Virus record (IMG/VR): IMGVR_UViG_3300020468_000075
Coordinates: 1 to 23,768 of that record
Reading direction: 5' to 3' (one strand)
DNA from: a virus
Length of the DNA: 23,768 bases
The notes under the pieces are model-generated. The model did no database searches and had not been told where the DNA came from. It saw only the letters and a list, made by a program, of their open reading frames with translations. The translations under genes were made by a program, and so were the position numbers. Of the stretch, positions 56 to 8,923 are shown piece after piece (the first letter of the stretch is position 1; the number at the start of each line of letters is the position of its first letter).

Positions 56-853
56 ATGGCAGTTTTAGGAGCAAGTGCAGCAGGAGCACTACCTCAGATA
101 GCGATAACAAATTCAGTAAACTGGACTCCTCCGCAGGACGGTACTTGTGTTTTTCATTTAATTGGAGGAGGCGGTGGTGGCTCTTGTGATAATTCTGGAA
201 GTAACGTAATGGGCGGTGGCGGTGGCGGCTACTCTAAAAAAACGTATGCAGTTACTACGTCTCAAACTTATGCAATTGTAATTGGGGGTGGAGGAGTAGG
301 AGGAGGTTATAGTGGTACCAGAGCAGGGGCTGCAGGTGGACACACTACCATGACTTTAAGTGGAGTTGGTCCTACGATTACTGCAAACGGAGGAGGTGGA
401 GGCACAACAAATGGTTCAGCTTCTGCTGGTGGTGCTTCATCCAATGGTGATGTTAATCGTACAGGAGGAGCTGGAGCATTTTATGGTGGAGGCGCTGTAG
501 GTATTCATGGAACCGGTAACGCTGCTAGAAATAATGTAAATGATAATGGTGGTGCTGGTGGAGGCCATTCAGATGCTATTGCGCCAGAGGGATGGTCTGG
601 TTTTGGTGAAATTACTGGAGGGAAGGGCGGTATAGCTTTTGTAGGGCAAGATAACCGTCATTGGGCAGGTTATTCGTCAGCTGCTCCTGCGTTAGCAGGA
701 GGAGGCTCAATATCCCATAACCCGGAATCACATAATGCTGGTGGGCAACATGGAAGCATAGGCGGTGGCGGTGGCGGAGCTAAGAATTATAATGGACTAA
801 TGTCTGCAGGAAGTGGGGGAGATGGTATAGTACTTATTCAATATACCGCATAA
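56..853 (+). CDS. Glycine-rich phage tail adhesin-like protein (265 aa)
   Basis: The protein is dominated by glycine runs (GGGGGG near residue 38, GGGGGGY near 53, then repeated GGxGG motifs to the C-terminus). Early in the protein is an NWTPP motif followed by a hydrophobic strand leading into the first glycine run, and the C-terminus is of the form GGDGIVLI. The genes at 2392 and 3946 share this plan. In characterised phages such as Salmonella phage S16, glycine-rich tip proteins (gp38) form polyglycine-II sandwiches with receptor-binding loops; a similar receptor-binding role is inferred here. The gene directly follows a fibre gene, with an AGGAG site overlapping that gene's stop. It has no signal peptide or membrane segment and should sit at the distal end of a virion fibre. 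Confidence 0.7.
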   Translation: MAVLGASAAGALPQIAITNSVNWTPPQDGTCVFHLIGGGGGGSCDNSGSNVMGGGGGGYSKKTYAVTTSQTYAIVIGGGGVGGGYSGTRAGAAGGHTTMTLSGVGPTITANGGGGGTTNGSASAGGASSNGDVNRTGGAGAFYGGGAVGIHGTGNAARNNVNDNGGAGGGHSDAIAPEGWSGFGEITGGKGGIAFVGQDNRHWAGYSSAAPALAGGGSISHNPESHNAGGQHGSIGGGGGGAKNYNGLMSAGSGGDGIVLIQYTA

Positions 854-864
854 AGGAGAAAAAA

Positions 865-1188
865 ATGACAACATATGTAATAAAAGAAAGTAATGGAACA
901 ATTATCAATCCAGGCGTAAAAGGCGATCTTGATTTTTGCAAGATAGCTTTTCCGGGAAAAGTCATAGAAGAGCTTAAAGCTCCAGAGCCGAGTGCAGAAG
1001 AAAAAACTGCAAGAGCAACAGCAGAAGAGCGAATATGGAGAGATGCAGAACTTACAAGAACTGATTCTCTTTCACTTCTAGCAGATTTTCCAAAGAAAAC
1101 TGAACTCACTGCCTATCGAAAAGCATTGAGAGACTGGCCTGCGTCTGCAGATTTTCCAACTGAAAGTAAAAGACCAGTGATGGGGTAA
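865..1188 (+). CDS. Phage tail assembly chaperone-type protein (107 aa)
   Basis: The C-terminal half (about residues 57-100) has the pattern W-R-x-A/E-E-L-x-x-T-D ... F ... Y-R-K-x-L-R-D-W-P, typical of the small Phage_tail_APC family of tail or fibre assembly chaperones. The N-terminal half is a short strand-rich segment. A strong AAGGAG site lies 7 bases before the ATG. The same C-terminal domain recurs in the gene at 7904, where the sequence also ends LRDWP.. ADFP, so the two are paralogues with unrelated N-termini. Its place directly after an adhesin-like gene suggests it helps fold or attach that cassette's fibre; this is inference. Its last codons (GTG ATG GGG TAA) also supply the purine-rich stretch ahead of the next ATG. 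Confidence 0.72.
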   Translation: MTTYVIKESNGTIINPGVKGDLDFCKIAFPGKVIEELKAPEPSAEEKTARATAEERIWRDAELTRTDSLSLLADFPKKTELTAYRKALRDWPASADFPTESKRPVMG

Positions 1189-1191
1189 ACT

Positions 1192-2382
1192 ATGCCGTTT
1201 CTAGGAACAACTCCGGGTACTAAAGAAGCAGATTTTAGTATCAATACGATGACAGGCGACAATAGTGATACTACTCTATCATTATCAAAAACGCCTGCCA
1301 ATGAAAACTTTGTGCAAGTATACTATGATGGAGTATATCAGCACAAAGATACTTTTAGTGTTTCTGGAAATACAGTAACGTTTAGCACTGCACCCGCTAC
1401 GGGTGTGAAAGTCGAAGCGATTGTAATGTCGGAAGTTGTTGCTTCAAGTGTTACAACTATTAATGATGATGCAGTAACAACCGCAAAAATATTAAATGCA
1501 AATGTTACAACAGCAAAAATTGCTGACGATGCGATTACAAGTGCGAAGATTGCTGATGATGCAATTACAAGTGCTCTTATCGCTGACGATGCCATTACAA
1601 GTGCTCTGATAGCGGATGATGCGATTACAACTGCACTCATCGCTGACGATGCGGTAGCCGCAGCTCAAATCGCTGATAATTCAGTCGATATTGCTCGGTT
1701 AAATGTATCTGACGGTAGCAATGGACAGTTTCTTCGAACAAACGGCAGTGGAACACTATCTTTTGCGACAGTTTCATCAGAAAAAGCTTACAATGATTGG
1801 GCAGTAAAAACAACTGCTTATACTGCTTCGAATCGAGATCAACTTATTGCAAATGGCGGATCTTCAGTTGCAAAAACATATGCAGTAACAGTAGCAGGCG
1901 GAGTATTTTATCTTGATGGTGTTGCTCAACCAGTAATAACTCTTACAAGAGGAGTAACCTATACATTTACACAATCAGACGGTACGAACAATGGTCATCC
2001 AATTGCATTTAAAGACTCTGGTGGAAGCTCCTATACAACAGGAGTAACTTCAAGTGGAACACCGGGAAATGCGGGCGCAAATACAGTTTTAGTTCTTGCA
2101 GCAAATGCACCTGTTGCAGGATTACGATATTACTGTACTGTGCATGGAAACGGTATGGGAAATACAATCAATGTAGTTGACGATGATTTTACAATTACAC
2201 TACCAGCAGGTTCTGCAGGAAATACAGTAATTATAAAAGCAACTGGTGGTGGTACAACAGTCACTATTGGAAGAAACGGCAGCCAAAAAATTAACAGCGT
2301 TGCAGCAGACGCAACTTTATTTAGTGGTAACGGTGTTCAATTGGTATATGTTGATGACACTGTAGGCTGGTTAGAAATCTAG
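1192..2382 (+). CDS. Tail fibre protein with decapeptide repeats and inserted cupredoxin-like domain (396 aa)
   Basis: Domain order: residues 1-85, a strand-rich N-terminal domain (VYYDGVYQ, FSVSGNTVTFSTAPA) of the kind that attaches fibres to the virion in many phages; residues 91-170, eight ten-residue repeats of consensus ADDAITSAKI; residues 171-192, the segment NVSDGSNGQ..TNGSGTLSF shared with the other fibres here; then a C-terminal module ending in QLVYVDDTVGWLEI. Between DQLIANGGSS and FTITLPAGSAGNTV the module is interrupted by about 105 residues resembling a cupredoxin. The repeats are expected to form an elongated trimeric shaft. It is the only fibre seen here with the long N-terminal domain, so it may be the one directly anchored to the tail, with the shorter genes encoding accessory or alternative fibres. 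Only three bases separate it from the chaperone-type gene before it. Confidence 0.78.
   Translation: MPFLGTTPGTKEADFSINTMTGDNSDTTLSLSKTPANENFVQVYYDGVYQHKDTFSVSGNTVTFSTAPATGVKVEAIVMSEVVASSVTTINDDAVTTAKILNANVTTAKIADDAITSAKIADDAITSALIADDAITSALIADDAITTALIADDAVAAAQIADNSVDIARLNVSDGSNGQFLRTNGSGTLSFATVSSEKAYNDWAVKTTAYTASNRDQLIANGGSSVAKTYAVTVAGGVFYLDGVAQPVITLTRGVTYTFTQSDGTNNGHPIAFKDSGGSSYTTGVTSSGTPGNAGANTVLVLAANAPVAGLRYYCTVHGNGMGNTINVVDDDFTITLPAGSAGNTVIIKATGGGTTVTIGRNGSQKINSVAADATLFSGNGVQLVYVDDTVGWLEI
1462..1701 (+). repeat. Eight tandem 30-bp units encoding fibre decapeptides
   Basis: In-frame units of 30 bases encode ADDAITSAKI-like decapeptides (residues 91-170 of the fibre). The amino-acid repeats are nearly identical in the middle four units, while the codons differ: Asp as GAC or GAT, Ala as GCG, GCA or GCC, Leu as CTT, CTG or CTC. 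The last unit (ADNSVDIARL) is the boundary unit that recurs in the two later fibre genes. The pattern fits a repetitive fibre shaft. Confidence 0.85.
1867..2184 (+). other. Cupredoxin-like domain inserted in the fibre C-terminal module
   Basis: This part of the fibre gene encodes about residues 226-331. Visible type-1 copper-site candidates are His269 (NNGHPIAF), Cys315 (YYCTVH), His318 and Met322 (GNGMG). In plastocyanin the ligands are His37, Cys84, His87 and Met92. The first spacing here is 46 residues against 47, the Cys-His spacing is 3 in both, and Cys-Met is 7 against 8. The strand pattern before Cys (VAGLRYYC) and after Met (NTINVVD) also fits the fold. The flanking sequence is continuous in the paralogous fibres without it, so it behaves as an inserted domain. 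Actual copper binding is not shown. Confidence 0.62.
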
Positions 2383-2391
2383 GAGATATAA

Positions 2392-3357
2392 ATGTCAATT
2401 GTAGGAAATAACACAGCAGGAAGAGCCTTACCAAATATAGGACTTTTTGGCTCACAATCATGGACTCCAGCTTTTAGTATGCAAGCCTATGTATATGTGA
2501 TTGGAGGAGGAGGTTCTGGTGCTGCTAGCGATGATAATACAAATCGTTCTGGAGGCGGAGGTGCCGCAGGATGTGCGATAAGCTTTTTAACACTTTTATC
2601 TTCTGTTACTTATACCGTTACTATTGGAGCAGGAGGAGCACAAAAAACTCCTGATAATGCAGGAGCCAATGGTGGTAATTCTTCTTTATCTGGTTCAAAT
2701 ATAGCAACTATGACGGCCAATGGTGGTATTGGTGGAGCCCAATCAACAAATTCAGCTATTACAGGCGCTGCTGGTGGTGCTGCATCTGGAGGTACTATTT
2801 GTAATAATACAGGCGGAGCAGGAGGCGATGTTCCAAACACAGGAGGAATGGTATCAGGTGGAGGAGCAGTTGGTATATGGGGAACTGGAAATAAAGCTGA
2901 AGGTGGAGGGTATACGGCGTATACTTCTTACCTTGGAGGATCACTAAACTACCCCAACGGCTTTTTTGCTGCTGGTGGTGGTGCATATGGAGGTACAGAT
3001 TATGGCACAGCGGGTAGAGAAGCAACAGCTCCACCGCCCGTATTAGCTCCTTTTGAAGTATTATCTACCTATACTTCAGTAAGCTATGAACTTAATAATT
3101 ATAGAAGAGATACAACACAAATTCAAGTTACTGCTGGTCACGGTGGATATGCTTTTGGGCAAGGTTCAAATTATGGAACATCTGTTTCTGGTCCTTTTTG
3201 TGGAGGAAATGGTTTTTATGGTGCTATTAATGTTAAAGGTACAGCAGGAGGTGGAGGACTTGGAGCCGGAGGTGGAGCGATATTTGGAAACAGTAATTCA
3301 AGGTCTGGTGAGGGTGGTTATGGTGCAGTATTAATATTTCCAGTGGATATGGGGTAA
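2392..3357 (+). CDS. Glycine-rich phage tail adhesin-like protein (321 aa)
   Basis: This has the same plan as the adhesin-like proteins at 56 and 3946: a short lead with a SWTPAF motif, a hydrophobic strand (AYVYVIGGGGSG), a conserved block with TYTVTIGAGGA and GGNSSLSG, then many GGxGG motifs. The C-terminus is GEGGYGAVLIFP. Between glycine motifs, about residues 208-240 form a non-repetitive proline- and tyrosine-rich insert (APPPVLAPFEV ... YELNNYRRD) that has no match in the sister proteins. Such variable inserts between conserved glycine strands are what a receptor-binding tip would show. Its ribosome site (AGGAG) overlaps the stop of the preceding fibre gene, so the two are likely co-translated as a fibre and tip pair. 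No catalytic motif is visible. Confidence 0.7.
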   Translation: MSIVGNNTAGRALPNIGLFGSQSWTPAFSMQAYVYVIGGGGSGAASDDNTNRSGGGGAAGCAISFLTLLSSVTYTVTIGAGGAQKTPDNAGANGGNSSLSGSNIATMTANGGIGGAQSTNSAITGAAGGAASGGTICNNTGGAGGDVPNTGGMVSGGGAVGIWGTGNKAEGGGYTAYTSYLGGSLNYPNGFFAAGGGAYGGTDYGTAGREATAPPPVLAPFEVLSTYTSVSYELNNYRRDTTQIQVTAGHGGYAFGQGSNYGTSVSGPFCGGNGFYGAINVKGTAGGGGLGAGGGAIFGNSNSRSGEGGYGAVLIFPVDMG

Positions 3358-3360
3358 ATT

Positions 3361-3945
3361 ATGGCATCAACACTTATCACAACAAATGTAATCTCGGATG
3401 ACGCAGTAACGGCAGCAAAGCTAGCAAGTAGTGCCGTAGTTACAGCTTCAATTGTTGACGACGCAGTAACAGCAGCAAAGATCGCAGATAATTCTGTTGA
3501 TATTGCACGTTTAAATGTGTCAGACGGTAGCAACGGACAAGCACTTACTACAAACGGTAGTGGTACTCTTTCTTTTGCTTCAGTTGGTGCTGCTGACGGT
3601 AGTATTACAACTGCAAAACTTGCAGACGATGCTGTAACCGCTGCAAAAATAGCAGACAGTGTATCACTTGGAGCTTATACAGCCTGGTCTATTAAAACAG
3701 GCAACTATACTGCAGTGCATAAAGATCAATTGATTGTAAACTCTGGAAGTACAGTCACAATTACACTTCCTTCGAGCCCGAGTGCCGGAGATACAGTAGT
3801 TATAAAGAATGTTGGTGCAGGATCAGTGACAATTGCAAGAAATGGATCAAATATCGAGAGCGCAGCTCAGGACGGTAGCCTCGCATCTACAAAAGCAATG
3901 CAAGTAGTATATGTGGACGGTACTTTAGGATGGAAGGAGATTTAA
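3361..3945 (+). CDS. Short tail fibre protein with decapeptide repeats (194 aa)
   Basis: It lacks the 85-residue N-terminal domain of the 396-residue fibre and starts almost directly in the repeats: residues 12-51 hold four units, ending with the shared ADNSVDIARL. Then follow the shared NVSDGSNGQ..TNGSGTLSF segment, two more repeat units (about 80-101), and the C-terminal module (DQLIVNSGS, TVTITLPSSPSAGDTVVIK, VVYVDGTLGWKEI) without the cupredoxin insert. The protein is likely an elongated oligomeric shaft ending in a beta-rich knob that joins the adhesin encoded next. Without a recognisable anchor it may attach to another fibre rather than the baseplate; that is inference. It follows the previous gene by three bases through the junction ATGGGGTAAATTATG, nearly the same as the junction before the 396-residue fibre. 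Confidence 0.75.
   Translation: MASTLITTNVISDDAVTAAKLASSAVVTASIVDDAVTAAKIADNSVDIARLNVSDGSNGQALTTNGSGTLSFASVGAADGSITTAKLADDAVTAAKIADSVSLGAYTAWSIKTGNYTAVHKDQLIVNSGSTVTITLPSSPSAGDTVVIKNVGAGSVTIARNGSNIESAAQDGSLASTKAMQVVYVDGTLGWKEI
3394..3663 (+). repeat. Two blocks of 30-bp decapeptide-coding repeats in the short fibre
   Basis: Bases 3394-3513 encode four decapeptide units, and about 3597-3663 encode roughly two more. They are separated by the conserved NVSDGSNGQ..NGSGTLSF linker. The units match those at 1462-1701 in protein sequence, but the codons vary. Confidence 0.8.
3535..3560 (+). repeat. Exact 26-bp direct repeat, copy 1
   Basis: These 26 bases, starting ggacaagcac, recur without change at 5147-5172 in the next fibre gene. 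They encode the shared linker GQALTTNGS. Exact identity in otherwise synonymously diverged paralogues marks either recent exchange or a potential recombination point. Confidence 0.85.
3718..3751 (+). repeat. Exact 34-bp direct repeat, copy 1
   Basis: These 34 bases, beginning cataaagatc, are identical to 5420-5453 and encode HKDQLIVNSGS at the start of the C-terminal module. It is the longest exact match I found between the two fibre genes, and it sits exactly where the cupredoxin domain is inserted in the third paralogue. Confidence 0.88.
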
Positions 3946-4914
3946 ATGCCATATGTTTTTGGTGGTGGTGGTGGCGGTGCAGGAGCAAATCTGCCGATTA
4001 TTGCTTTTAAAGACTCAGTAACTTACGTACCTGCATGGACATCAGAAGTAATTGCTTATGTAATTGGAGCAGGCGGAAGTGGAGGTGCTGCACGAGATTC
4101 AAGTGATTGGAGTGCTGGAGCATCAGGAGGAGGTGCAGGTGGCACAGCAATCAGTCGTTTAACTTTAACAGGAGGAGTTAGCTATACCATAGCGATTGGA
4201 GCAGGCGGAGCACGAAAAACTACAACGACTACTCCACAAACAGTAGCAGGAGCTGCTGGTGGAAACTCAAGTTTATCAGGATCTGATATATCCACTATGA
4301 CTGCAAATGGTGGTACTGGTGGTACTGCAAGTACTAGTGCCTCTACTGCAGGAGGAACTGGAGGTTCTGCGTCTGGTGGAAATATTGCAAACTTTACGGG
4401 CGGAGCTGCTGGTGCTGCAAATGGTGCTAGTTATCATTCTTCGGGAGGCGGTGGTGTAAGTCTTTTTAATGTTCCAGCGACGACTACTAGTATCGGAGGT
4501 GCTCCTGCGGGAGGATCTAGTTTTTTGAATTCAACTACCACAACTGCCACAGATGTTACAGTAATGGGTTCAGGGCCGGGTGCAAACACTGATCAAGGAT
4601 ATATCGCTCCTTTTCCTTTTAATATTTCAAATCTTCATCAGAATTATATGCATGATGTTTATCATTTTGGAGCATATGAACTTCCTGCAGGATCTTTGGG
4701 TCATTTAGTACGGAATACTTCATATAGCCATCCTGGCTCTCCTTTTGCTGGAGGGGCTGGAGATGGCTTTGGTCAGACTACAGGTGCTTATGCAGGTGCG
4801 GGAACTTTTGGTTCAGGAGGTGGTGGAGCAACGGTAACAGCTTATTCCACTAATGCGAACAGCGGAGCAGGTGGAAATGGAATAGTCTTCTTTATAACAC
4901 AGACTATCTCCTAG
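3946..4914 (+). CDS. Glycine-rich phage tail adhesin-like protein (322 aa)
   Basis: It opens with an unusual poly-glycine head (FGGGGGGAG at residues 5-13), then LPIIAFKDSVTYVPAW and the strand AYVIGAGGSGG. The conserved block (YTIAIGAGGARK, GGNSSLSG, STMTANGGTGG) is close to that of the 321-residue adhesin. About residues 212-265 form a glycine-poor insert rich in His, Tyr, Asn and Phe (FPFNISNLHQNYMHDVYHF), different from the insert of its sister. The C-terminus is GAGGNGIVFFI. The ATG immediately follows the TAA of the fibre gene, with AAGGAG overlapping that gene's last codons, a strong sign of coupled translation. A receptor-binding tip role is inferred from composition, position and the S16 gp38 analogy. 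Confidence 0.7.
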   Translation: MPYVFGGGGGGAGANLPIIAFKDSVTYVPAWTSEVIAYVIGAGGSGGAARDSSDWSAGASGGGAGGTAISRLTLTGGVSYTIAIGAGGARKTTTTTPQTVAGAAGGNSSLSGSDISTMTANGGTGGTASTSASTAGGTGGSASGGNIANFTGGAAGAANGASYHSSGGGGVSLFNVPATTTSIGGAPAGGSSFLNSTTTTATDVTVMGSGPGANTDQGYIAPFPFNISNLHQNYMHDVYHFGAYELPAGSLGHLVRNTSYSHPGSPFAGGAGDGFGQTTGAYAGAGTFGSGGGGATVTAYSTNANSGAGGNGIVFFITQTIS

Positions 4915-4924
4915 GAAATAAATT

Positions 4925-5647
4925 ATGGCATTTTCAAAAGCACGAAGATTAGCAAATTTGATGAGCACTGGGTCGAATGAAGTTCCAGCGTCAAAACGAA
5001 CACTTGCAGCGGGATCAATTGCAACAGCAGCACTTGCTGATGATGCGATTACCTCTGCAAAAATTGCTGATGATGCGATTATCGCTGCACTTATCGCGGA
5101 TAATTCCGTAGATATTGCACGCCTTAACGTATCCGATGGTAGCAATGGACAAGCACTTACTACAAACGGTAGCGGTACGCTTTCTTTTACTTCAGTTGGT
5201 ACTGCAGACGGTAGTATTTCAACTGCAAAGATCGCAGATGATGCTGTGACAAGTGCGAAGATCGCTGATGATGCTGTGACAACAGCGCTTATAGCAGACA
5301 ATGCAGTTACAACAGCACTTATAGCCGACGATGCTATAACTGCTGCAAAAATAGCAGACAGTGTAGAGCTTGGAGCATATAAGGCTTGGGCAATAAAAAC
5401 TAGTGGGTATACTGCTGTACATAAAGATCAATTGATTGTAAACTCTGGAAGTAGCGTTACAATTACACTTCCTTCAAGCCCTTCTGCTGGCAATACAGTT
5501 ACAGTTCACGCTGGAGGTGCAGGTGCGGTAGTCATTGGGCGAAATGGAAGTAATATTAATTCAACGGCTGACGATGGAAGCCTCGCATCAGGTTCCTCCA
5601 CTCAGTTAGTATATGTCGATGGAACTATCGGCTGGAAGGAGGTTTAG
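4925..5647 (+). CDS. Tail fibre protein with decapeptide repeats (240 aa)
   Basis: The protein has a short basic head (MAFSKARRLANLMS), a first repeat block (about residues 31-67) ending in ADNSVDIARL, the shared NVSDGSNGQ linker, and a second block of about five units (97-146) of consensus ADDAVTTALI. The C-terminal module runs from AYKAWAIKTSGY to TQLVYVDGTIGWKEV. It resembles the 194-residue fibre with more shaft units. The head MAFSKARRLANL is a type of leader seen on phage structural proteins and differs from the starts of the other fibres here. Its end is closest in DNA to the truncated fibre at the left edge of the window. A very strong AAGGAGG site overlapping its final codons serves the large gene that follows. 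Confidence 0.76.
   Translation: MAFSKARRLANLMSTGSNEVPASKRTLAAGSIATAALADDAITSAKIADDAIIAALIADNSVDIARLNVSDGSNGQALTTNGSGTLSFTSVGTADGSISTAKIADDAVTSAKIADDAVTTALIADNAVTTALIADDAITAAKIADSVELGAYKAWAIKTSGYTAVHKDQLIVNSGSSVTITLPSSPSAGNTVTVHAGGAGAVVIGRNGSNINSTADDGSLASGSSTQLVYVDGTIGWKEV
5015..5362 (+). repeat. Two blocks of 30-bp decapeptide-coding repeats
   Basis: Bases 5015-5125 and 5213-5362 encode ADDAIxxAxI-type decapeptides on either side of a conserved linker. Neighbouring units in the second block are more alike in DNA than those at 1462-1701 (for example two units reading gatgatgctgtgacaa), which suggests more recent unit duplication. Confidence 0.8.
5147..5172 (+). repeat. Exact 26-bp direct repeat, copy 2
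   Basis: Identical to 3535-3560; it encodes GQALTTNGS of the conserved linker between repeat blocks. Confidence 0.85.
5420..5453 (+). repeat. Exact 34-bp direct repeat, copy 2
   Basis: Identical to 3718-3751; it encodes the start of the shared fibre C-terminal module. The bases on either side differ between the two copies. Confidence 0.88.
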
Positions 5648-5649
5648 AA

Positions 5650-7893
5650 ATGCCAGTTAAATTAGGCGGAAGCAGTGGTGGCGGTAATCTTACGTTCACG
5701 GAAACGACAGGCACGGCATTAGAAACGCTTGTTGCAGGCGATCAGGTTGAGTTAACGAAGGACGGTGGTTTTGTCAAGAACGCCGATAACTCACGCCCCT
5801 ATTATAGGAATCAAATAGGTGGGAACGGCAGCACCTTCAACACTTGGATTGGGGAAGAGGACGGCACGATTGGCACCGGATCGACTAGCGGTAATTATTA
5901 TATAACCGCAAGTTTTGAAAATACTTCATATCGGAACAATACGTTTTTTGGCGCTCTAAGCAACGGATGGGGAATTGTGTCTTTCAACACAAATAATCAG
6001 AGCTGGACGCAAAATTATTACTATCTAAAAACCTTCAATATGGCGACGGGTGCTTTACAGACATGGTCAGGTGGACACGTCCGTTTGTATCACTATTCTT
6101 ACATCGATAACTGGGGCTGGAAAGAGTTAAAAAACGATGGGACATACACATGGGCTATCGGATGGAATCAAAGGAAGCAGAATACTGGAACAAAATTTTC
6201 CGGTTGGTGTGTAGTGAAGGTTAAAAACAGCAATGGCTACATCGTCGGTGCTCACAGCCCCACAAGCGGCGCAACTTGGGCTTCAAATCTCATACAAGCT
6301 GAGACTCGCAGCATGTCTCCATTTTCGACTATGGCGTGTATTGCTGAAGATATTGTGTGCGTTCCCGATCTGTCAGGCGGCAATCATAGCGCATATGTAA
6401 CGTATAACTTTCATCGAATTCACTTAGACGCAGCAGATACAAGCTCTCAAATAACCAGTTTTAATCAAACCGAAAATTACAATATTCACCAAGAATATGC
6501 ACAGACAGGCTATGCGTATTCTATTCAGCAACATCAAGTCTTCGTCCTAAATTCGTCTACTCGCACTTTCATGTTTGTGCGCCGACTGAACAACACATAC
6601 AACAATACAAACAACCGTCTTCAGTACAAAATCGTTAGCTTTGCAGCAAGTGGAACAACCGTTACCACAAATGTCGATTGGACAACGCTCACAGGCTCAG
6701 ACGAAGGTGGAAATTTAGCTGTCGATAAAATGTATAAAGGCAAGCTGGTTCGCATTAGCAACAATAATTTTGCGGCTATCAACTCAGCATCAGCGACAAC
6801 AACAGAAGTTCAAAAGTTTACTTGGAATGGTTCAGCCATTGCCGAGAATGGTTCTAAATATACAATCACTCATGCGACTAACTACCAGTTCAACGCAGGA
6901 GATAATCTTAGTGGCAACCTTGCCAGCGCATTTTGTGACTGTACAAAAGGCAACGGTGATCAGATTTACTTAATGGCAAGCTCAGGCGCTCAATCGACTG
7001 CGGACTATGGATCTTTTCGATATATTTCAAAACTTGATTTAATTAACAATACTCTTACCGTGATGGACACCAATGATGTCAATGGTGCTGGCACTTATGG
7101 CGATGCGAATGTCAACAGCACTCAAATCGTGGACGGGGCTTTGTATTTCGCGGAACCTACTACGACTAACACGGATCTCAGTTCCAGTGCGGCTTATATT
7201 ACTAAATACCACTCTTGGCATTTCGACATTCAAAGTGGAGTATCAGCCGCAAAAGCCGGAGAAGTAAGTACGGGTGCTGCTCAAGGCGGTACTGCGACAG
7301 TTCAGTTATTTCAAGGCATCAGTTCCGGTTCTGCGCTAAATCCTGCGTACTACGCCACAAAAGAAAATATGCAGTACCTTATGAATGTGGATGGTGCGCC
7401 ACCAGCCGCTGGCGGAGTTGTCTATCCAACGATCAACAAGGTGAATGTTGCGCTAGTAAATCACAATACAACCTGGTATAGCGTTGTTGGAAGCAATATG
7501 TATTCTACCAAGACGGCCAGTATTTACCATACAACCACAACGGATTTTGAGCTTCTTGCCGTGCAGGGGGCGGGGTGTGTAAACGAATGCCATTGGGGAT
7601 TTACGGATACAGGTAGTGTCAGTCACCACACGCAAGTGTTGATCGATGGTGTCATCGTGTACGGCACACAGGCCGCTTATGACAACTACAACTCTGGTAA
7701 TAAACCTAACCATGATCGAAATTATGCATGGTCGTTGAGTCCAGCAACTCTTTACAATCAGACACAGGTAAGCGGCACTTTGTCGCATCCAATAACATTC
7801 AAAAGAAGTTTTGTAATAAAAATCATGGCTCCACCAGCAAATAAATCTTGGATCTGCCGTGCAAGTATTACGAAGTTTGCCACGTTACCGTAA
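5650..7893 (+). CDS. Large phage tail protein, probable distal or receptor-binding subunit (747 aa)
   Basis: I do not recognise a named family. It occupies the slot after a fibre gene that elsewhere holds a glycine-rich adhesin. It keeps only a brief glycine head (LGGSSGGG) and then diverges completely. Residues 20-45 (TTGTALETLVAGDQVELTKDG) look like a small beta domain. About 225-480 show repeated strand units with WNGS, KLDLINNTL and VRISNNNFAAINS motifs, suggestive of a beta-propeller. From about 578 a separate beta-rich C-terminal domain ends in FVIKIMAPPANKSW. It is rich in Tyr, Asn and Thr, with no signal peptide, membrane helix or catalytic motif seen. Base composition looks somewhat more GC-rich than the fibre genes to its left, hinting at separate origin. 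A virion receptor-binding role is inferred from context. Confidence 0.6.
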   Translation: MPVKLGGSSGGGNLTFTETTGTALETLVAGDQVELTKDGGFVKNADNSRPYYRNQIGGNGSTFNTWIGEEDGTIGTGSTSGNYYITASFENTSYRNNTFFGALSNGWGIVSFNTNNQSWTQNYYYLKTFNMATGALQTWSGGHVRLYHYSYIDNWGWKELKNDGTYTWAIGWNQRKQNTGTKFSGWCVVKVKNSNGYIVGAHSPTSGATWASNLIQAETRSMSPFSTMACIAEDIVCVPDLSGGNHSAYVTYNFHRIHLDAADTSSQITSFNQTENYNIHQEYAQTGYAYSIQQHQVFVLNSSTRTFMFVRRLNNTYNNTNNRLQYKIVSFAASGTTVTTNVDWTTLTGSDEGGNLAVDKMYKGKLVRISNNNFAAINSASATTTEVQKFTWNGSAIAENGSKYTITHATNYQFNAGDNLSGNLASAFCDCTKGNGDQIYLMASSGAQSTADYGSFRYISKLDLINNTLTVMDTNDVNGAGTYGDANVNSTQIVDGALYFAEPTTTNTDLSSSAAYITKYHSWHFDIQSGVSAAKAGEVSTGAAQGGTATVQLFQGISSGSALNPAYYATKENMQYLMNVDGAPPAAGGVVYPTINKVNVALVNHNTTWYSVVGSNMYSTKTASIYHTTTTDFELLAVQGAGCVNECHWGFTDTGSVSHHTQVLIDGVIVYGTQAAYDNYNSGNKPNHDRNYAWSLSPATLYNQTQVSGTLSHPITFKRSFVIKIMAPPANKSWICRASITKFATLP

Positions 7894-7903
7894 GGAGAAA
7901 TAA

Positions 7904-8191
7904 ATGGAAATTGTTAGAAATTATACGGCCCCTGAGCGGCTAGAAAACCCTCAAGCTGGGGATCGGGTGAGATATATCGATCATCAGGGTTTTGTCGTTG
8001 ACACTGGATATATGCCGCCTCCCACTGAAGCAGAAGAAGCGCGTCAATGGCGGAATGAGGAGCTTACAGGAACGGACAAATGGATGGCTGTGCCAGATCA
8101 TCCAAAGTTTGAAGCGTATAAAACTTATCGTAAAAAACTACGAGACTGGCCTTCTACTGCGGACTTTCCGAAGACTCGTCCAACTCTTTAA
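7904..8191 (+). CDS. Phage tail assembly chaperone-type protein (95 aa)
   Basis: The C-terminal half (about residues 44-92) carries the Phage_tail_APC-like pattern W-R-N-E-E-L-x-x-T-D-K ... Y-R-K-K-L-R-D-W-P followed by S-T-A-D-F-P. It matches the paralogue at 865-1188 closely in this half only. The N-terminal half (RVRYIDHQGFVVDTGYM) is unrelated to that paralogue's. A TAAGGAG site lies just upstream. It closes the late operon and likely assists assembly of the preceding large tail protein; that pairing is inference. Its last 38 bases are overlapped on the other strand by a small gene, so both proteins constrain that DNA. Confidence 0.72.
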   Translation: MEIVRNYTAPERLENPQAGDRVRYIDHQGFVVDTGYMPPPTEAEEARQWRNEELTGTDKWMAVPDHPKFEAYKTYRKKLRDWPSTADFPKTRPTL

Positions 8192-8312
8192 GCTGTCTCT
8201 CAGCTTCCGCACGTATTTTCAATATCAGTTCCATACTCATCTCAGCGGGCAGTTTACCTAACCCGCTGAGAATAGTATTCACCTCTTGTATTTCAAGTTC
8301 TAGTGTTATCAT
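8154..8312 (-). CDS. Small conserved-looking phage protein (52 aa)
   Basis: The ATG at 8312-8310 overlaps the TGA of the outer-membrane protein gene (ATGA), and the frame ends in TAG at 8156-8154. The product begins MITLELEIQEVNTILSGLGK and continues LPAEMSMELILKIRAEAE. Short proteins with this layout (strand, then EVN.IL..LG.LP, then an amphipathic helix with KI.A.A) occur near tail genes in many marine phages; I recognise the pattern but know no function. There is no clear ribosome site, so translation probably depends on termination and restart at the ATGA. It overlaps the last 38 bases of the + strand chaperone-type gene in antisense. Confidence 0.72.
   Translation of the reverse strand: MITLELEIQEVNTILSGLGKLPAEMSMELILKIRAEAERQLKELDESSESPQ
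8241..8270. terminator. Hairpin between convergent operons, possible bidirectional terminator
   Basis: A perfect 9-bp inverted repeat (ctcagcggg / cccgctgag, 8241-8249 and 8262-8270) flanks a 12-base loop. It lies where the + strand late operon and the - strand operon meet, 50 bases after the stop of the late operon. Neither side has the run of T expected of a classic intrinsic terminator, and the stem lies inside the 52-residue gene. Termination is therefore only a suggestion. Confidence 0.4.
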
Positions 8313-8923
8313 TCGAACGTTTTACTTATATACAATATATAAGAATCTTCTTCATCAGTTATTATTGCTGCTCCTCCAAGTTCAAGAGTAAGCCAGTCTC
8401 GACTAAAACCAACCTCTACATAATCCCCAGAGAAACCCTTTCCGAACTCTCCATACTTCACATAAACACCGTCATATGCCGCAGTCACAGAATAAAAATT
8501 GTAGTCTACACCACCATCTCCATCCCACTTACCCTGCGAATAATCACCATTGATGCTTGCACCCCAGAGTTCAAACCCTGCTCCTGCGTTTGCTTCTTTG
8601 TAGGTCTTGTCAAAGTTGCCAGTATAGCTATATACTGTACCACCTACATATGCGGAGAATCCCCAGACATCGAAACCAATGCTACCATAGGTATCAATCT
8701 CTGCACCATCTCCAACATCAGCAGCCCATCCGCCAACAGTTGCTTCTGTACCGAAGTAAGAAGGCATTGTAGCTTCTACACCAGCAAATGCTGAATTTTC
8801 TTTTTGATGAACTCCACGAAAGTGATAATCCGTCATATATCCAACAGTTGCTGATACATCGCCTTCAAAAGCGATAGCTGCAGGAGTGCAGAAAGCAAGT
8901 AAAAGTACTAATATTTTTCTCAT
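8309..8923 (-). CDS. Secreted outer-membrane beta-barrel protein, Gcw_chp-like (204 aa)
   Basis: Residues 1-18 form a signal peptide: MRK, a hydrophobic core LVLLLAFC, and a likely cleavage site after AIA. The mature protein begins with a strand and the motif VGYMTDYHFRGVHQ, typical of the proteobacterial Gcw_chp (TIGR02001) barrel family. It then alternates short amphipathic strands with Gly/Asp turns and ends YILYISKTFE, close to the aromatic C-terminal signature of barrel proteins. The expected site is the host outer membrane. It follows ribonucleotide reductase by 10 bases, with AAGGAAAAATAAATG as ribosome site, so it is expressed with early or middle replication genes, not with the virion genes. 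Possible roles are receptor masking, superinfection exclusion or altered permeability; none is shown by the sequence. It was probably acquired from a host. Confidence 0.75.
   Translation of the reverse strand: MRKILVLLLAFCTPAAIAFEGDVSATVGYMTDYHFRGVHQKENSAFAGVEATMPSYFGTEATVGGWAADVGDGAEIDTYGSIGFDVWGFSAYVGGTVYSYTGNFDKTYKEANAGAGFELWGASINGDYSQGKWDGDGGVDYNFYSVTAAYDGVYVKYGEFGKGFSGDYVEVGFSRDWLTLELGGAAIITDEEDSYILYISKTFE

Follow-up and report, generated by a model that had tools for sequence, protein, structure and literature searches.

A predicted cupredoxin domain with a nearly invariant His-Cys-His-Met set inserted in the tip module of a marine phage tail fibre

The tail fibre gene at positions 1192 to 2382 (plus strand) of the window, the whole 23,768-nucleotide stretch of viral DNA analysed here, raises the question of whether a copper protein domain has been built into the tip of the fibre and what such a domain would do there. 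The gene was taken from the list of open reading frames, and its 396-residue product matched the PHROG tail fibre families phrog_892 (2.4e-23) and phrog_30742. Two paralogous fibres are encoded on the same strand at 3361 to 3945 and 4925 to 5647, and in both of them the C-terminal tip module is uninterrupted (an empty site). Alignment with these paralogues divided the module of the 396-residue fibre into a first part ending in DQLIANGGSS (1786 to 1863) and a second part running from FTITLPAG to GWLEI (2188 to 2379), between which the insert lies (1867 to 2184, approximately residues 226 to 331; all plus strand). The three-fibre alignment contained a single clean gap, reading DQLIANGGSSV-[~105 aa]-DDFTITLPAG in one fibre versus DQLIVNSGS(S/T)VTITLPSSPSAG in the two paralogues. 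Five related fibres on other viral contigs, which are 79 to 82% identical to the paralogue module, showed no interruption at the insertion point. An earlier note had claimed that about 105 residues interrupt the C-terminal module between DQLI.N.GSS and TITLP and that they contain His269, Cys315, His318, and Met322 with spacings of 46 (H to C), 3 (C to H), and 7 (C to M); the interruption was recovered in the alignment, and the residues and spacings were found in the open reading frame as described. With the residues in place, one clean gap relative to the paralogues, and five uninterrupted related fibres, we regard the insertion as real.

AlphaFold2, supplied with a 23-sequence family alignment, returned a model of the insert with a mean pLDDT of 92.7 and a pTM of 0.85. 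The top PDB match of this model was the N-terminal domain of the nitrite reductase from Hyphomicrobium denitrificans (2dv6; Foldseek E of 1.7e-4), which was superposed with a Z score of 9.6 and an rmsd of 2.8 over 99 residues (VIA-align). The further PDB matches, two-domain laccases (Z of about 9) and rusticyanin, were all cupredoxins as well. The strands of the model span residues 3-11, 14-17, 25-28, 32-37, 47-50, 61-64, 72-77, 87-91, and 95-105; in the same numbering, the first His is residue 45 (just before strand 47-50), Cys is residue 91 (at the end of strand 87-91), and the second His and the Met are residues 94 and 98. In plastocyanin, the ligands follow the same order and occupy the same places relative to the strands. 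In a model of the whole tip, the insert was again predicted with high confidence and the tip module scored under 60; therefore, we leave the relative position of the two unclaimed. A cupredoxin fold was one of the tests that the earlier note had set, and a confident model whose best PDB matches were all cupredoxins bears it out: the insert is almost certainly a cupredoxin, that is, a Greek-key beta sandwich, as far as prediction can tell.

A profile of the domain family recovered the insert at an E value of 1.5e-39 and nothing else in the window. Comparison with established cupredoxin profiles, likewise proposed earlier, had a divided outcome. Profile-profile comparison with plastocyanin-like bacterial proteins reached a probability of 79%, with Cys, His, and Met in register and the first His a few residues off, whereas the Pfam family Copper-bind (PF00127) matched none of the 23 family members. 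An azurin profile aligned with the family over the C-terminal strand pair only. The best Pfam match was PF25489 (At5g54830-like), which spans nearly the whole domain with 21.4 bits against a cut-off of 27 and matched just 5 of the 23 members. No Pfam or NCBIfam model that was tried reached its cut-off on the insert, and NCBIfam gave no relevant match. Because none of these models recognises the domain above its threshold, it is filed under tail fibre or hypothetical proteins despite being common in marine viruses. PDB sequence searches, whether with the single protein or with the family profile, returned weak antibody matches and other weak matches only; because the fold search gave cupredoxins, we attribute the antibody matches to chance similarity through a YYC motif.

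The presumed copper ligands are encoded on the plus strand at 1996 to 1998 (His269, the first ligand, in a GHP motif just before a strand), 2134 to 2136 (Cys315), 2143 to 2145 (His318), and 2155 to 2157 (Met322, the axial ligand). Plastocyanin uses H37, C84, H87, and M92. On the model strands and by conservation, the order His, Cys, His, Met was found with the first His before a middle strand and the others in the last loop, as in a type-1 site. The ligand loop reads C-x2-H-x3-M in the fibre, and relatives in the ligand-blind survey described below have x3 or, in about half of them, x2; thus, neither the insert nor its relatives have the C-x2-H-x4-M loop of plastocyanin and pseudoazurin.

The earlier note had named joint conservation of the four residues in homologues as a point on which its proposal could fail. 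Our first homologue search used peptide patterns that included the ligands. Such patterns bias conservation counts, and the survey was therefore repeated with patterns and queries free of ligands. Across homologues from the ligand-including and then the ligand-free patterns, the tetrad was complete in 129 of the 129 domains that span its positions. For the ligand-blind survey, segments of 40 to 44 residues between the ligands served as queries, and the residues at the ligand positions were then scored in the flanking sequence at 160 loci. All four residues were present in 158 of these viral loci. A regular expression flagged 10 of the 160; inspected by eye, 8 were intact, and the other two were a locus that stops at the contig end (L230) and one in which the first His is replaced by Asp and the Met by Leu (L244). 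The 160 loci comprise 136 distinct sequences with a median pairwise identity of 57%. Among the distinct sequences, the first His was kept in 135 of 136, Cys and the second His in 136 of 136, and Met in 99.3% of 135. Of the 58 positions outside the query segment, only 6 reached 99% conservation, and the ligands account for four of them (counting probability, 3.5e-5). The number of independent events is smaller than these counts, since the loci have a common ancestry and some come from contigs of the earlier survey. Thus, the four residues are conserved together in diverse homologues, and the family profile match and the near invariance of the tetrad in the ligand-blind survey together make the insert more than a chance resemblance. 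Losses were coupled: besides the double replacement in L244, both His and the Cys are replaced in one flavobacterial protein (L189). Cyanophage P-SSM2 contains five matches, four with all four residues and one with none (in a 5195-residue protein; weak, E of 0.004). Ligand-free weak matches of this kind were seen in very large structural proteins of cyanophages P-SSM2 (80705 to 80971) and S-B68 (127862 to 128113); these are perhaps metal-free descendants.

Relatives of the domain are widespread in marine viruses. Among the 600 pattern matches listed in a first survey of IMG/VR, 547 encode a relative, so that at least 547 exist; in a second survey, the figure was 573 of the 600 matches listed, a set that may overlap the first. 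Most of the carriers that have names are cyanophages; one is a pelagiphage, and the rest are other marine phages. When eight whole phage records were searched, each of them contained the domain. The tail fibre family phrog_30742 was matched by 58 of 60 distinct carrier proteins, a count that is partly circular because the domain is part of the profile of that family. A T7-type fibre N-terminus is present in five carriers. Carrier length ranges from about 220 to more than 1600 residues, and the domain is found near the start, in the middle, or near the end, sometimes twice in tandem; in one fibre (L198), it lies near the N-terminus and the tip module is uninterrupted. Within the Flavobacteriaceae, 13 of 199 genomes had a match. 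The clearest cellular carriers resemble lipoproteins and keep the H-C-H-M set, with the exception of L189. Some matches in one flavobacterial genome (G001) appear to lie on viral-looking contigs. Four of the lipoprotein-like flavobacterial proteins (L180, L181, L183, and L189) combine the cupredoxin-like domain with repeated modules that carry HPAHIH motifs, a combination which, judged from sequence, suggests metal-binding surface proteins as cellular relatives. The cupredoxin domain is thus a mobile module that occurs in fibres, other virion proteins, and flavobacterial lipoproteins.

The earlier note had held that a single fibre type is decorated. This is correct within the window, but a contig of about 99% identity (IMGVR_UViG_3300020349_000702) carries two domain-bearing fibre genes, at 1 to 1183 and 2323 to 3513. 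The two fibres are near-identical except for the C-terminal tip, and a glycine-rich protein and a tail assembly chaperone are encoded between them. Since the window begins just inside an array of this type, a second fibre copy probably lies upstream of it; the double fibre could, however, reflect a strain mixture in the assembly. In the window, positions 56 to 8191 hold alternating cassettes in the order glycine-rich protein, chaperone, fibre, glycine-rich protein, fibre, glycine-rich protein, fibre, a 747-residue protein without a family match, and a second tail assembly chaperone. This arrangement suggests that a repertoire of fibre tips was built by duplication. Beyond the array, a small protein is encoded on the minus strand at 8309 to 8923. 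Its N-terminus looks like a signal peptide, and it weakly resembles the putative porins of the TorF type (TIGR02001; 24.8 bits, cut-off 47), which would make it a phage-encoded outer-membrane protein, perhaps one for superinfection exclusion.

The Cys-His-His-Met set makes copper the most likely ion, and hundreds of marine viral relatives in which the four residues are almost never lost point to a probably working metal site on the exterior of the virus. From the alignments and the model, the four residues very likely form a metal site under selection, and the metal in this predicted site would probably be copper. The domain is thus most likely a metal-binding, probably copper-binding, cupredoxin that decorates fibres, with a site that may stabilise the domain or help it to stick. 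Taken as a whole, the explanation toward which we lean is that a cupredoxin module of about 105 residues, able to fold independently, was transferred whole into a loop within the beta module of the fibre tip, where the tetrad clamps one ion and the domain serves in adhesion or decoration. A single copper ion would sit between H269, C315, H318, and M322 and would pin the strand that follows H269 to the C-terminal ligand loop, having been taken up in the cell or after release into seawater. The result would be a rigid and stable knob beside the fibre tip, whose exposed His318 edge could make contact with the host surface. The main role would then be adhesion or decoration by a metal-stabilised domain rather than electron transfer; this putative role we consider evenly balanced. 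Electron transfer is an unlikely purpose, because the structural genes nearby include no evident redox partner. The cytoplasm in which phage proteins fold contains little free copper, which counts against a copper site, and the non-plastocyanin loop and the slightly displaced first His in the profile alignment speak against a type-1 reading.

The alternative that survives best, although we consider it unlikely, is a purely structural knob: a fold derived from a copper protein that is metal-free in virions and keeps the four residues for packing. Decoration domains of phages are often inert beta sandwiches, and some distant weak phage matches have none of the four residues while still residing in virion proteins. 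Packing would permit single substitutions, however, whereas the tetrad is near-invariant among sequences of 57% median identity and its few losses are coupled. This pattern is close to all-or-none in divergent relatives, as would be expected of a metal site more than of residues kept for packing; together with the near-invariant axial Met, it favours a real metal site.

Improbable, too, is a reading in which marine phages wear copper, with many type-1 centres on fibres and surface proteins, and use it at the host surface as a bait or redox docking partner, the copper or the His318 face being recognised by a copper-uptake or redox protein of the host. On this reading, seawater would also contain a store of copper bound to marine virus particles. 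The site is conserved across phages of different hosts, and an iron analogue, the Trojan-horse hypothesis, has been proposed for marine phage fibres (PMC11705849). By analogy with that hypothesis, a copper role in host recognition is possible but unsupported, and the same domain occurs in virion proteins that need no host contact and in cellular lipoproteins.

We very much doubt that the cupredoxin-like fold holds another ion such as zinc or iron. Cys and two His also bind zinc, but Met is a soft ligand typical of copper sites rather than of zinc or iron sites; in this family it is nearly fixed, and the best fold matches are copper proteins. Iron, for its part, has been proposed in other marine phage fibres (PMC11705849). 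An immunoglobulin-like phage domain whose YYC-x2-H motif resembles a copper loop by chance is scarcely credible: the family profile does match antibody domains weakly through YYC (E of 0.0017 at best), but cupredoxins came first in the fold searches (where absence from a match list does not by itself exclude an immunoglobulin fold), the required second Cys is absent, and the conserved His and Met would be left unexplained.

Respiration, photosynthesis, and oxidases are the settings in which type-1 copper centres are known, so that a copper ligand set that is complete and nearly invariant is unexpected in a surface domain of a virion. If these sites are indeed occupied, copper supply may affect the stability of the phages or their attachment to hosts, and copper would join iron among the metals borne by phage fibres. 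The closest solved folds, the N-terminal domain of 2dv6 and two-domain laccases, are only 10 to 20% identical to the insert and are parts of enzymes, whereas the insert stands by itself in a fibre. Plastocyanin, pseudoazurin, and amicyanin share its H, C, H, M order and C-x2-H; in plastocyanin the His-to-Cys spacing is 47 (46 in the insert), and x4 precedes the Met (x3 in the insert). In the insert, Pro comes directly after the first His, a feature shared with the type-1 His of multicopper oxidases and not with the small blue copper proteins, which are free electron carriers, as the insert is not. Proteins of the cyanophages and pelagiphage Syn1, S-TIM5, S-B68, P-SSM2, and EXVC032P Baldr contain the unnamed domain with the same four residues at other positions in the carrier, and their annotations go no further than tail fibre, virion structural, or hypothetical protein. 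The literature searched, which covered subscription journals thinly, contained no account of a phage fibre with a cupredoxin; the fold is already known, and its use in virions seems undescribed in that literature. A predicted metal site in a marine phage fibre does have a precedent in the iron-binding HxH domains of Alteromonas phage R22Y (PMC11705849). The HxH motif is absent from the 396-residue fibre, and the two cases, alike in placing a predicted metal site on a fibre, differ in motif, fold, and metal.
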